A stretch of 64,000 nt of DNA from an uncultured Olsenella sp. (GTDB lineage: Bacteria; Actinomycetota; Coriobacteriia; Coriobacteriales; Atopobiaceae): assembly GCA_900314535.1 (NCBI GenBank), contig OMVT01000004.1:1-64000 (forward strand), read 5' to 3'. This document shows, piece after piece, positions 18,234-32,595 of the stretch. A program made the position numbers and the translations under genes. The stretch's first letter is position 1. Every line of letters starts with the position of its first letter. The notes beneath the pieces were generated by a model that had not been told where the DNA came from, did no database searches, and saw nothing but the letters and a program-made list of their open reading frames with translations.

Positions 18234-19166
18234 TTACTTGTTCGTGACGTTGCCGTCTGCGTCACGGGCGACCTTCATGCCAGTGACAGGGATGTAGCCC
18301 GTCTGCTCGACGAGGGAGCCCTGGACATCGTCGGAGAACATGTAGTCGATGAAGGCCTGCGTGGTCTCGTCAGGATCTGCTGCGGTGTACATATGCTCGT
18401 AGGCCCAGATCTTCCAGTCGTTGGTCTCGACGTTGGCTTCCTTTGCCTCGACGCCGTCGACCTTGAGTGCCTTGAAGGTGTCAGCGAAGTAGGAGAAGGC
18501 AAGGTAGGAGATGGCACCCGGGGTCTGGGCGACCATGGATGCGACGGTGCCGGAGGAATCCTGCTCCTGCGGCTTGAAGGACTCGGGGACCTTGTCGGAG
18601 CCGAGAACAGCGGACTCGAAGGTTGCACGGGTGCCGGAGCCGGAAGCGCGGTTGATGACGACGATGTCCTGATCGGAGCCGCCCACGTCCTTCCAGTTCG
18701 TGACCTCGCCCATGAAAATCTTCTTGAGGTCGGCCATGGAGATGTCGTCGACCGTGACCTCAGAGTTCACGACCGGGCCCATGCCGACAACGCAGACCTG
18801 GTTGTCCTTGAGCTTCTTTGCGTCATCCTTGTTGGAGAGCTTCTCCTCGGCGAAGACATCGGAGTTGCCGATCTGGACAGCACCCTGGGAGATCTGCGTG
18901 ATGCCCTGGCCGGAACCGCCACCCTGGACCGTGATCTGGACATCCGGGTAGGTCTCCATGAACTGCTCGGATGCAGCCTCGACGAGCGGCTGGAGTGCCG
19001 TGGAGCCGACAGCGGTGATGCTGCCGGACAGATTCTTCGTCTCGCTCGAGCTGGAGTCTGTGGTGGACGTGCTGCCACCGCCGCAGGCGGCAAGGCCGAG
19101 ACCTGCGAGTGCTGCAGCGCTTCCGCTCATAGCAAGGAAGCCGCGACGGGTAAGGCTCTTTGACAT
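18234..19166 (-). CDS. pstS: Phosphate-binding lipoprotein PstS
   Basis: PstS captures phosphate outside the membrane and delivers it to PstCA. The 310-residue precursor has a signal peptide with twin arginines (residues 7-8, TRRGFLAMSG) and a lipobox LAAC with Cys28. Both Tat export and lipid anchoring are therefore possible. A Ser/Thr linker follows. The mature domain has the phosphate-binding segments AVGSTALQPLVEAA, GGGSGQGITQ and RASGSGTRATFE, all PstS hallmarks. It is first in the pst operon with an AGGAGG ribosome site, behind a long leader and the candidate Pho promoter. Confidence 0.95.
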   Translation of the reverse strand: MSKSLTRRGFLAMSGSAAALAGLGLAACGGGSTSTTDSSSSETKNLSGSITAVGSTALQPLVEAASEQFMETYPDVQITVQGGGSGQGITQISQGAVQIGNSDVFAEEKLSNKDDAKKLKDNQVCVVGMGPVVNSEVTVDDISMADLKKIFMGEVTNWKDVGGSDQDIVVINRASGSGTRATFESAVLGSDKVPESFKPQEQDSSGTVASMVAQTPGAISYLAFSYFADTFKALKVDGVEAKEANVETNDWKIWAYEHMYTAADPDETTQAFIDYMFSDDVQGSLVEQTGYIPVTGMKVARDADGNVTNK

Positions 19167-28254: not shown

Positions 28255-28614
28255 CTACTCCGTCTTGCTGTCTGCGTCCCCGGTCTCGGCGTCTTCGACA
28301 TCGACGTCGACCTTCACATGGGAGGCTTTCGCCGCATCTGCCATCTCCTGGACCTTGCGGACGAACGCGTCGCGCTCCTCATCGGACATGGAGTCGATCT
28401 TCGACTTCAGGGCACCATCCGAAACGCCGTCCACAACGTCGCGCGTGCGGTGCCTGAGCTCCTCGTTCAGGGCCTGGCCCTGCTTCACGGTCTCCTCGCC
28501 CTTGCGGATGAGATCGTCGAGCATCTCCGTGCTCTTGTCGCTTGCGGTGGCAACGGCACCGACGCCTGCCAGGAAGATCTTGTGCGCAGTATCGAATGCA
28601 TCGAATCCGGACAT
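28255..28614 (-). CDS. Phasin-like helical protein
   Basis: The 119-residue protein resembles PhaF/PhaI-type phasins. It has an N-terminal amphipathic helix with FLAGVGAVATASDKSTEMLD, then a long charged helix (LIRKGEETVKQGQALNEELR) and an acidic tail (DVDVEDAETGDADSKTE). True phasins coat polyhydroxyalkanoate granules. No PHA synthase is visible in this window and the lineage is not known for PHA, so binding to lipid or membrane surfaces is a more likely role. It is cotranscribed with the UbiB-like kinase 3 nt downstream, which suggests that the two work together. Confidence 0.75.
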   Translation of the reverse strand: MSGFDAFDTAHKIFLAGVGAVATASDKSTEMLDDLIRKGEETVKQGQALNEELRHRTRDVVDGVSDGALKSKIDSMSDEERDAFVRKVQEMADAAKASHVKVDVDVEDAETGDADSKTE

Positions 28615-28832
28615 GGCAGCTCCTTATCTCGAACAACCAATATGCATTCTTTCTACCCGAAGAGCGCATCCAATTTCTCGCCGTTTCCGGAGGCGGCCCC
28701 TATGCGTGCCGGAATGGAGGAAAAACCTGCCACAGAAATGTCAGCCGTATGCTATCCAGCAGGATGCACTTGGTAACAGTTGAGATAATTTCCGGCTTTT
28801 TGCAGAGCTGTATCAGACTGAATAGCTACAGT

Positions 28833-28913
28833 GTTCGCATCTATACATCTCGCCTTCGCTGCTTCGGCAGGAGGGCGCATCTGTGCCTTGGCGCAGGTGC
28901 CGAACGATGGGAG
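28833..28913 (+). ncRNA. Candidate structured leader (three-way junction) of serC
   Basis: P1: GTTCG (28833-28837) pairs with CGAAC (28901-28905). P2: an 11-bp stem at 28851-28877 with one bulged G and a C(TTCG)G tetraloop. P3: CTGTGC/GCGCAG at 28881-28896 with a CTTG loop. Single-stranded joints contain CATCT three times. GATGGGAG, the serC ribosome site, starts immediately after P1, so CATC segments could mask it. Promoter boxes upstream (TTGCAG at 28800, 17-bp gap, TAGCTA) are weak. I do not match it to a known riboswitch class. The rest of 28615-28832 holds nothing recognisable. Confidence 0.5.
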
Positions 28914-28920
28914 CATGTAG

Positions 28921-30006
28921 ATGGCTCGCGTGTTCAACTTCAACCCAGGTCCGGCAGCAATGCCCGAGAGTGTGCTCCAGGAAGCCCAGTCCGAGCTTCT
29001 CGACTACCAGGGCAGTGGCATGAGCGTGCTTGAGATGAGCCATCGATCTCCGGAGTTCGAAGAGATCCTCCAGGATGCCAAGGCAGCCCTCAAGACGCTC
29101 TATCGCATTCCTGACAACTACTCGATCCTGTTCCTGCAGGGCGGCGCCACGCTCGAGTTCGCAGGCGTGCCGATGAACCTCATGTTCACGGGCCATGCCG
29201 GCTACATCGTGTCTGGCAACTGGTCGAAGAAGGCCTACAAGGAAGCTGCCAAGTATGGCACGGCAGACCTTCTGGCCTCCTCTGAGGAGACGCACTTCGA
29301 CCATACCGCAACGATTTCCGGCCCCGTCGACCAGAGCCTCGACTATGTCTATCTCTGCCAGAACGAGACCGTCTATGGAACGATGACAAAGGAGCTGCCG
29401 GAGACGGGCTCGGTCGATATCGTGGCCGACATCTCGTCGATGTTCCTCTCCTGCCCGCTCGATATCTCCCGCTATGGCATGCTGTATGCGGGCGCCCAGA
29501 AGAATGGCGGCCCTGCCGGCATCACGGTCCTGATTGTCCGGAACGACCTCCTCGAGAAGGCACCGGCACGCGCCGACATCTGCCCGCAGTACCTTGACTG
29601 GCACGTCGAGGCAGAGAAGGACTCGCTCCTCAATACGCCGAACACCTTTGGCATCTATCTCTGCGGCAAGGTGTTCCACTGGGTCGAGAAGACCGGCGGC
29701 CTTGAGGCCATGGGCGAGCGCAACTGGACCAAGATGAACAAGCTCTACGACGAGATCGACTCCTCCAAGCTGTACAGGGGCCTGGCAAGGCCCGAGGACC
29801 GCTCCATCTCGAACGCCGTCTTCACGACAGGAGACAAGGAGCTTGACGCGGCCTTCGTGGCAGGCGCCAAGGAGCGCGGCATGGTCGGTCTCAAGGGCCA
29901 CAGGATCCTGGGCGGCATGCGCGCAAGCTGCTACAATGCCGTCTCTCCTGAGGCAGTGGACGCCCTCATCGCCTACATGGAGGACTTCGAGCAGGCAAAC
30001 GCATAA
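28921..30006 (+). CDS. serC: Phosphoserine aminotransferase SerC
   Basis: SerC transaminates 3-phosphohydroxypyruvate to phosphoserine with glutamate. The 361-residue class V aminotransferase begins FNFNPGPAAMPESVL. It has EMSHRSPEF (38-46), LFLQGGATLEF (70-80), WSKKAYKEA and the PLP lysine K194 in AGAQKNGG, and ends with RASCYNAVSPEAVDAL. All are SerC-specific. It begins 15 nt after the candidate structured leader and leads a serC-serA-DUF1015 transcript. Subunits are cytosolic dimers in the family. Confidence 0.97.
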   Translation: MARVFNFNPGPAAMPESVLQEAQSELLDYQGSGMSVLEMSHRSPEFEEILQDAKAALKTLYRIPDNYSILFLQGGATLEFAGVPMNLMFTGHAGYIVSGNWSKKAYKEAAKYGTADLLASSEETHFDHTATISGPVDQSLDYVYLCQNETVYGTMTKELPETGSVDIVADISSMFLSCPLDISRYGMLYAGAQKNGGPAGITVLIVRNDLLEKAPARADICPQYLDWHVEAEKDSLLNTPNTFGIYLCGKVFHWVEKTGGLEAMGERNWTKMNKLYDEIDSSKLYRGLARPEDRSISNAVFTTGDKELDAAFVAGAKERGMVGLKGHRILGGMRASCYNAVSPEAVDALIAYMEDFEQANA

Positions 30007-30043
30007 GAGCCTGATTTCCCATAGATTCGAAAGGAGCGCATCC

Positions 30044-31234
30044 ATGCGCTATGTAAAGGTGCTCGACAACATCGCAAAGAACATCACCCGAGATGGTGTG
30101 GCCGAGCTCGGCGAAGGCTACGAGAAGACCGACGACATCAACAAGGCAGATGCTATCCTGGTCCGTGCCTCCGACATCCACGGCCTCGACTTCGGACCTT
30201 CGGTCCGCTGCGTCGCCCGCTCCGGCGCCGGTGTCAACAACATCCCGCTCGAGGAGTGCGCTGAGCGCGGCATCGTCGTCTTCAACTCCCCCGGCGGCAA
30301 CTCGAACGCCGTGAAGGAGCTCGTAGTCGGCATGATCCTCGTGAACTCCCGTGACACCCAGGGCTCCATCGACTGGGTCGAGGACCACACGGACGACCCC
30401 AACATCGTGAAGGATGCAGAGCGCAACAAGAAGGCCTTCGTAGGCCATGAGCTCATGGGCAGGAAGGCCGGCGTCGTGGGACTCGGCGCTGTCGGCTCGA
30501 AGGTCGCCAATGCCCTTGTCGCCCTCGGTGCCGATGTCTATGGCTACGATCCGTATCTTTCCGTCGAGCATGCCTGGCAGCTCGACCGCTCCGTGAAGCG
30601 CGTCGAGAGCCTCGATGACCTCTGCCGTGGCGCCGAATATCTGACGCTCCATGTGCCCGCGAAGGAAGACACGATCCACATGATCTCGACCGAGCAGCTG
30701 GCGCTCCTCGCACCTTCTGCGATGCTTCTGAACTATGCCCGTGCCGACATTATCGACGAGGACGCCGTGGCAGCAGCCCTCGAGTCCGGCCAGCTCGGCA
30801 AGTTCATCTGCGACTTCGCGACGCCGAAGACGACGAAGATGCCACGCACGACGATTACCCCGCACATGGGTGCCTGCACGAACGAGGCCGAAGAGAACTG
30901 CGCGCACATGGCTGTCGGCGAGATGAAGGCCTACCTCGAGATGGGCACGATCAGGAACTCCGTGAACTACCCTGCCTGCGACCTTGGCCCCTGCAAGGCA
31001 GGCGGCCGTGTCGCCCTTCTGCACAAGAACGTTCCGGGCATGATCGGCAAGATCTCCTCGATCCTCGGCAATGCCACGGCAAACATCCAGAGGATGGCAA
31101 ACGAAGCACAGGGAGCGCATGCCTACACGCTGCTTGATACCGACGTTCCCCTCGATGAGGGCACTGTCGATGAGCTTTCCAAGATCGATGGCATCTACCG
31201 TGTCCGTGTCATCAAGCCGGCACGCACTGCCTAG
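30044..31234 (+). CDS. serA: D-3-phosphoglycerate dehydrogenase SerA
   Basis: SerA oxidises 3-phosphoglycerate with NAD to start serine synthesis. The 396-residue protein begins MRYVKVLDNIA after AAGGAGCGC. It has the NAD-binding GLGAVGS at 146-152, catalytic Arg in NYARADIIDEDA and His in TPHMGACTNEAEEN. The C-terminal ACT domain (about 318-396, VALLHKNVPGMIGKISSIL) is where serine usually inhibits. It lacks the long intervening domain of mycobacterial SerA. It is 37 nt from serC. Feedback inhibition by serine is expected but not visible. Confidence 0.96.
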   Translation: MRYVKVLDNIAKNITRDGVAELGEGYEKTDDINKADAILVRASDIHGLDFGPSVRCVARSGAGVNNIPLEECAERGIVVFNSPGGNSNAVKELVVGMILVNSRDTQGSIDWVEDHTDDPNIVKDAERNKKAFVGHELMGRKAGVVGLGAVGSKVANALVALGADVYGYDPYLSVEHAWQLDRSVKRVESLDDLCRGAEYLTLHVPAKEDTIHMISTEQLALLAPSAMLLNYARADIIDEDAVAAALESGQLGKFICDFATPKTTKMPRTTITPHMGACTNEAEENCAHMAVGEMKAYLEMGTIRNSVNYPACDLGPCKAGGRVALLHKNVPGMIGKISSILGNATANIQRMANEAQGAHAYTLLDTDVPLDEGTVDELSKIDGIYRVRVIKPARTA

Positions 31235-31252: not shown

Positions 31253-32536
31253 ATGCATGCCTATCCGATGAGCTGCCTTCGTCCTGCGCCTGACAAGGCG
31301 TCGACATTTGCAGCCCTTCCCTACGATGTCTTCGACCGCGCCTCCGCCAAGGCCTATGTCGAGGCGCATCCGAAAAGCTTCCTTGCTATCGACCGTCCCG
31401 AGACCGCCTTCGGGCCCGGCCAGGACATGTATGCCCCTGAGGTCTATGCAAAGGCCAAGGAGCTCTTGGACGAGCGCATCGAGGACGGGACGCTCGTAGC
31501 CGATGGCAGGAAGTGCTACTACCTCTATAGGCTCGAGCAGGCAGGACGATCGCAGACGGGCATCGTCTGCGCCGCTGCGGTCGATGACTTCGTCGATGGC
31601 ACGATCCGCCGCCACGAGAATACCCGTGCCGACAAGGAGAAGGACCGCATCGACCACATCGCGGCCCTCGATGCACAGACGGGTCCGGTATTTCTTGCCT
31701 ACCGCGACAATCCGGTCCTCGCAATCATCTTGAATGCTGCGATGTCGGGACGTCCGCTCTATGACTTCACGGACGAATACGGCGTGCGCCAGACCGTCTG
31801 GAGGGTTGCCCGCCAGGACGCTGTCGATGCGATCGAGGCCATGCTCGAGCAGATTCCCTGCGCCTACATCGCAGATGGCCACCACCGTGCGGCAAGCGCC
31901 GTTAAGGTGGCCCTTGCCCGCCGCGAAGAGCATCCGAACGCAAGCTCCAAGGCCCCCTGGAACTTGGTCCTTTCCGTCCTCTTCCCTGCCTCCGAGCTCA
32001 AGATCCTGGCCTACAACCGTGTCGTCGAGGACACGGCGGGGCTCACGGCAGACGAGCTCCTCGCTGCTGCAAAGGATGCTGGCTTTGCCGCAGAGGGACC
32101 CTTCACGGAAGCGCCTGAACCTGAAGAGCGCCATACGTTTGCCCTCTTTGTCGGCGGCTCCTGGTATAGGCTCTCGCTCGCCCTCACCCCAGAGGAGGAG
32201 CAGGACCCTGTCGCCTCGCTTGACTGCTCGCTTCTCCAGGACAGGTTCCTCTCTCCTGTGCTCCACATCGAAGACCCGCGCCGTGACCCCCGCATCAGCT
32301 TCGTCGGCGGCATCGAGGGGACAGAGGCTCTTTCGAAGGCAGCAGGCGATGCAGGCTGTGCATTCTCGCTCTTCCCCACGAGCATGGACGAGCTCATGCG
32401 CGTGGCCGATGCAGGACTCCTCATGCCTCCGAAGTCGACCTGGTTCGAGCCGAAGCTCAGAAGCGGCCTCTTCATCCGCCCGCTTTCCGGCATCGACCCT
32501 GAGCTTGCGATGAAGCAGGAAGCAGGAGAGGCCTAA
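31253..32536 (+). CDS. DUF1015 family protein linked to serine synthesis
   Basis: The 427-residue cytosolic protein belongs to DUF1015. Family marks are LPYDVFDRASAKAYVEAHP near the start, FLAIDRPE, RHENTRADKEKDR (charged loop) and YIADGHHRAASA near residue 206. The His-rich ADGHHR motif resembles that of ParB-like nucleotide-using folds. Its place directly after serC-serA, 18 nt downstream, is conserved in several anaerobes. Some relatives have been proposed to be free-serine kinases. Since no phosphoserine phosphatase gene lies here, a role at the phosphoserine/serine step is plausible, though unproven. A strong terminator follows. Confidence 0.85.
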   Translation: MHAYPMSCLRPAPDKASTFAALPYDVFDRASAKAYVEAHPKSFLAIDRPETAFGPGQDMYAPEVYAKAKELLDERIEDGTLVADGRKCYYLYRLEQAGRSQTGIVCAAAVDDFVDGTIRRHENTRADKEKDRIDHIAALDAQTGPVFLAYRDNPVLAIILNAAMSGRPLYDFTDEYGVRQTVWRVARQDAVDAIEAMLEQIPCAYIADGHHRAASAVKVALARREEHPNASSKAPWNLVLSVLFPASELKILAYNRVVEDTAGLTADELLAAAKDAGFAAEGPFTEAPEPEERHTFALFVGGSWYRLSLALTPEEEQDPVASLDCSLLQDRFLSPVLHIEDPRRDPRISFVGGIEGTEALSKAAGDAGCAFSLFPTSMDELMRVADAGLLMPPKSTWFEPKLRSGLFIRPLSGIDPELAMKQEAGEA

Positions 32537-32559
32537 AGGCCCCAACAGAGATACGCAGG

Positions 32560-32595
32560 CGGCTCCCCCGGCATGCCGGGGGAGCCGTTCTCTGT
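32560..32595 (+). terminator. Terminator of the serC-serA-DUF1015 operon
   Basis: CGGCTCCCCCGG and CCGGGGGAGCCG pair perfectly across CATG, followed by TTCTCTGT. Confidence 0.85.

Follow-up and report, generated by a model that had tools for sequence, protein, structure and literature searches.

A predicted two-hairpin leader upstream of serC in an uncultured Olsenella, kept in shape in one sister species

The closest known RNA to the element reported here is the alphaproteobacterial serC motif (RF00517), yet the two do not match. As described by Corbino et al. (2005; PMC1273637), that motif precedes a serC-serA operon and comprises two stems directly following the putative transcription start; the last stem, together with its GNRA loop, contains the ribosome site, and the start codon lies no more than 11 nt further on. 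In the same account the motif is thought to act on translation, and none of the seven compounds tested there bound. Its trigger is still unknown, as far as these accounts go (PMC1273637, PMC7266159). A structured leader of another serine-synthesis gene, the serine T-box leader of serA in Paenibacillus polymyxa, is described as 280 bp long and as containing both a terminator and a T-box sequence of 14 bp (PMC8002221). Our literature search returned no paper on the serC leader of Coriobacteriia. More generally, some bacterial mRNAs, such as ompA, carry stabilising hairpins at their 5′ terminus, which are stable, lie near the 5′ end and depend on shape more than on sequence.

We analysed a stretch of 64,000 nucleotides (the window) from an uncultured Olsenella sp. 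(source genome, G000), together with two other genomes of the same genus (G001 and G002). Features are on the forward strand unless stated otherwise. The serC gene (28921–30006, ATG at 28921) encodes a phosphoserine aminotransferase (Aminotran_5) and is followed in the operon by an ORF with a serA-like 2-hydroxyacid dehydrogenase (29843–31234, the real start lying downstream of the ORF start) and, as the third gene, by a DUF1015 gene (31253–32536), after which come a gap and the PFK gene. At ∼32555–32590, before the PFK gene, is a very strong GC-rich hairpin (GGCTCCCCCGGCATGCCGGGGGAGCC), in whose place G001 has another hairpin of different sequence; this is probably an operon-end element. The next gene upstream of serC, a phasin-like gene (28255–28614), points in the opposite direction, and serC must therefore have its own promoter. 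The serC ribosome-binding site, read from the sequence as GATGGGAG, occupies 28906–28913, and an ATG-TAG start-stop (28915–28920) that abuts the serC ATG is absent in G001.

A sequence-only reading of this stretch had placed before serC a compact three-way-junction RNA, formed by helices P1, P2 and P3, which it took for a possible riboswitch or attenuator and could match to no known class. The absence of a match was confirmed, with Rfam giving nothing relevant over the whole window, in the leader at E ≤ 5 (28640–28960), or at the loci of both G000 and G001. The RF00517 covariance model gave no above-cut-off match in G000, G001 or G002, and none of its weak matches lay at serC. The leader resembles RF00517 in having two stems, in its similar position and in standing before a serC-serA operon, and differs in that its ribosome site lies downstream of the stems, beginning 5 nt after P3, and that its loops are UUCG and CUUG, not GNRA. 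With the serine T-box, as far as that leader is described, it shares the character of a structured leader of a serine-synthesis gene, whereas it is ∼80 nt long, is without a terminator and has no Rfam T-box match. Hairpins P2 and P3 are like 5′-terminal stabilising hairpins in place and in the conservation of shape, with an effect on stability being predicted here; unlike those hairpins, the serC leader also has an invariant 15-nt 5′ block.

In the minimum free-energy (MFE) fold, P2 (28852–28876) is a hairpin of 10 bp with a bulged G28858 and a C(UUCG)G loop, in agreement with the loop and single bulge read earlier by eye, and P3 (28877–28900) has the CUUG loop assigned to it then, with 10 bp in place of the 6 proposed. 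The segment 28825–28925 has an MFE of −49.6 kcal/mol (z = −3.79), and none of 200 shuffles was as good; for the single G000 sequence, folding of the serC leader thus exceeds chance. The background was a set of 170 ORFs from 464 kb of G000, some of them false, each leader comprising 95 nt of upstream sequence plus 5 nt; in this set the serC leader placed sixth in z and third in energy. By eye, the five leaders with a better z were shadow or false ORFs, hairpins resembling terminators, or leaders with another layout. The G001 leader has a modest z of −2.1. As a group, serC leaders show structure at most slightly above background, with z below −2 in 18% of 117 leaders vs 14% of background at 82 nt, and in 9% vs 11% at 60 nt. 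This set was reduced from 123 loci by removing L036 (without upstream sequence), L123 (start unrecognised) and four identical leaders, and seven of the 117 come from other families of the order (L020, L023, L026, L030, L032, L033 and L034).

The letters on which the three-way junction was founded are all present, namely the serC ATG, the ribosome site, GTTCG/CGAAC and three copies of CATCT, and the ribosome site does directly follow CGAAC. The 5′ arm of the proposed P1 (GTTCG) lies at 28833–28837 and its 3′ arm (CGAAC) at 28901–28905, but their pairing is absent from every minimum-energy fold computed. The G000 minimum-energy fold pairs upstream CTACA.TGTTC.CATC with GATG.GAGCATGTAG, and when the RNA starts at 28833 or later the partner of GAAC is a GUUC in the serC coding region. 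The CATCT copies, at 28838, 28846 and 28878, had all been assigned to junctions; the third sits within P3 and is not conserved in G001.

Conservation of the hairpins was assessed against G001, whose SerC is 83% identical to that of G000. P2 and P3 share register in a structure-blind MAFFT alignment of the two leaders, and all 14 aligned pairs form in both species, six having changed on both sides and three on one, with five unchanged and none broken. The outer six pairs of P2 are kept with two double changes and one single change, and the eight aligned pairs of P3 with four double and two single changes. Sliding the partner by 1–3 columns, as a control, lowered pairing to 37–64%, and when the changed letters of G001 were shuffled within this stretch all 14 pairs were recovered in 43 of 200000 trials (P ∼2 × 10⁻⁴). 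Because of this retention and the shuffle P value, the RNA structure of P2 and P3 is probably under selection, a judgement drawn from one comparison of two species. The loops and helix sequences have diverged between G000 and G001, and what is kept is therefore shape and not sequence; junction J3/1 and both loops are not conserved. P1 retains three of its five pairs in G001, of which two have changed on both sides. The compact structured RNA proposed before serC is thus upheld by compensatory changes in P2 and P3, seen in G001 only, and its closure into a three-way junction through P1 is not.

From shortly after the proposed P1 5′ arm into P2 runs the invariant block, ATCTATACATCTCGC (28839–28853), identical in G000 and G001 at 15 of 15 positions and containing two ATCT copies 8 nt apart. 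The remaining upstream alignment is only 52% identical, and the chance of an identical run as long as this at the local identity is ∼0.007. The last bases of the block are part of P2; its other bases are for the most part unpaired in the folds of shorter RNAs. No further exact copy was found in G000, G001 or G002; allowing up to three mismatches gave otherwise about as many matches as the reversed-pattern control, and the one-mismatch match in G002 has no adjoining serC. By eye, the block is absent from 27 other relatives and from 13 more (L123, L130 and L131 viewed off-position). Further upstream, TTGGTAA and GATAATTTCC (28770–28794) are identical in the alignment of G000 and G001 and form a candidate regulator site.

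A consensus scan found no sigma-70 promoter at the serC leader. A −10 motif (GGCTATGATG) was learned from the 117 serC leaders, drawn from the family and order, after exclusion of the two that carry the element. Its best aligned match, AGCTACAGTG / AGCTAACGTG, gives a tentative −10 region at 28824–28833 (AGC-TACAGT-G; AGC-TAACGT-G in G001) and implies a start at ∼28838–28840, just before the invariant block. Of the shuffled alignments, 35% gave an equally good joint score, and this start assignment is therefore only a lead. Tentatively, then, transcription may start near 28838–28840, which would remove P1 from the RNA, and P1 may lie before the transcription start. The leader contains no terminator-like site, which speaks against attenuation by termination.

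The element has a narrow distribution. Among the genomes surveyed, serC was found in 44 of 60 relatives, in all three genomes of the genus and in 122 of 140 family genomes, and G001 is the only relative with the same leader layout; G002, from the same genus (SerC 70%), does not show it. A covariance model built from the two sequences, including their flanks, recovered the same two genomes each time, out of 140 in the family and out of 396 sampled in the class, and did not find the element in the other 394 sampled; with strict filters and a two-sequence model, weak relatives could be missed. The leader has no other copy in its own genome, and of two contig searches for more members of the genus one yielded no relative and the other gave, as the closest among 80 loci, an uncultured Olsenella (L012) at 69%.

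For four assumed starts, the predicted mean probability of being unpaired for GGGAG in the G000 ribosome site is 0.20–0.23; the longest RNA pairs this site with the far 5′ arm, and the shorter ones pair it with serC codons 2–3. In 32% of 63 leaders the ribosome site is similarly buried (≤0.25), and the burial at serC is therefore ordinary. Of the 14 pairs in the long-range helix by which the far 5′ arm covers the ribosome site in the G000 minimum-energy fold, 11 persist in G001 (six unchanged, one double change and four single changes, with three broken). The CATC:GATG pairing that had been offered as a switch is the same in G000 and G001; it shows no covariation and is therefore uninformative.

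Nine upstream regions were compared between G000 and G001, several of which fall in coding sequence. The clearly non-coding ones include the leaders of pfk and of a PstS-like gene, both of which have inverted repeats in the two species though their sequences have diverged, and serC is therefore not alone in these genomes in having hairpins whose shape persists while their sequence changes. Upstream of the promoter, 85 of the 117 serC leaders have, at ≥8 bits, a dyad resembling GTTTC-N6-GCAAAC, the motif having been trained on the same set (log-likelihood 302 vs 51 for shuffled). This dyad is a candidate site of a serine regulator. G000 and G001 have no clear copy of it, and have other conserved upstream blocks instead. 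As most serC genes of the order carry the dyad, their main control in this group is more likely to be at the level of transcription, and probably lies with a transcription factor.

The reading that we prefer, to which we give slightly less than an even chance, holds that the serC-serA-DUF1015 mRNA begins with a structured leader specific to this lineage, with hairpins that would tune stability or translation without a ligand. The transcript would start at or just before the invariant AUCUAUACAUCUCGC block, and in the RNA the two stable hairpins would follow directly one upon the other, P2 before P3, with the ribosome site after them. Acting by shape, the hairpins would shield the 5′ end of the mRNA from decay and set the exposure of the ribosome site, and so tune serC translation with no bound ligand. 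This is favoured by position, helices probably selected as RNA lying, in the two sequences available, downstream of a tentative promoter and ahead of the ribosome site, by the divergence of loop and helix sequences, and by the lack of an Rfam match and of a terminator. The pfk and PstS-like leaders, which also have inverted repeats in both species, suit a general structural role as well. Against it, the 15-nt invariant block exceeds the needs of a passive stabiliser, there are two sequences only, the G001 z is modest, and serC leaders are hardly more structured than background. The same features may have a DNA-level function, with the invariant and upstream blocks as promoter or regulator sites and the hairpins as inverted repeats of little function in RNA, an explanation that we consider unlikely. 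It gains from the dyad-based evidence for transcription-factor control, from a TATACA within ATCTATACAT that could be a −10, and from the dependence of the conserved-structure evidence on one species pair; it does not lead one to expect six two-sided changes that restore pairing, the family −10 motif gives the TATACA a negative score, and neither genome has a clear copy of the dyad.

We infer a role for the invariant block, which leaves room for a bound factor. It might be the strand of a narrow cis-regulatory RNA, bound by a protein, a small RNA or a serine-linked ligand, or pairing with the ribosome site, with P2 and P3 positioning it so that serC translation is switched. That an invariant 15 nt (P ∼0.007) adjoins covarying helices before a serine operon speaks for such an RNA, as do the largely paired ribosome site (0.20) and the long-range helix retained over it in G001. 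We nevertheless think it unlikely, as it is seen in two species only, J3/1 and both loops are not conserved, the strand covering the ribosome site depends on the start position assumed, about a third of other leaders are as buried, and the CATC:GATG pairs are uninformative. Distinctly improbable, in our judgement, is the more specific proposal of a very narrow and undescribed class of control RNA of the serine operon, in two species of one genus, in which an RNA-binding protein, a small RNA or a metabolite would recognise the 5′-terminal invariant AUCUAUACAUCUCGC and the two covarying hairpins after it and so expose or mask the serC ribosome site. The three-way-junction riboswitch of the sequence-only reading, a sensor of serine, glycine or a related ligand in which P1 would adjoin the ribosome site, has the gene context, real P2 and P3 hairpins and two P1 pairs changed on both sides that still pair; given a P1 that keeps only three of five pairs in G001 and that no minimum-energy fold contains, a narrow distribution, and no conserved core across junctions and loops save the one 15-nt stretch, we regard it as very improbable. 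Conserved covarying structure with core nucleotides in many species was not found, and a ligand-binding riboswitch is unsupported. Peptide-mediated attenuation by a short ORF from GTG 28831 to TAG 28920 was also considered; read by hand, it runs uninterrupted to a stop directly before the serC ATG, but it has few serine codons and lacks a ribosome site of its own, the frame and stop are not conserved in G001, and the candidate start at 28838–28840 would exclude it. We rejected this reading as having next to no likelihood.

Should the leader prove regulated, it would add another non-homologous RNA-level control of serC beside the alphaproteobacterial serC motif. If it is merely structural, it would indicate that shape-conserved, sequence-diverged leaders arise and persist in one genus, and would counsel caution against calling riboswitches from one sequence.

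Two further leaders were noted in the course of these comparisons. That of the PstS-like gene (18237–19166 of the window, reverse strand) has an inverted repeat, GGGCAGCC...GGCTGCCC, that is kept in G001, as are its upstream TTGTAAAG/TGTAA blocks. The gene at L226:4134 (forward strand), whose product by eye resembles an Abi-type abortive-infection protein, has a very stable hairpin leader (z = −4.7); some Abi-type abortive-infection systems have an associated small RNA.
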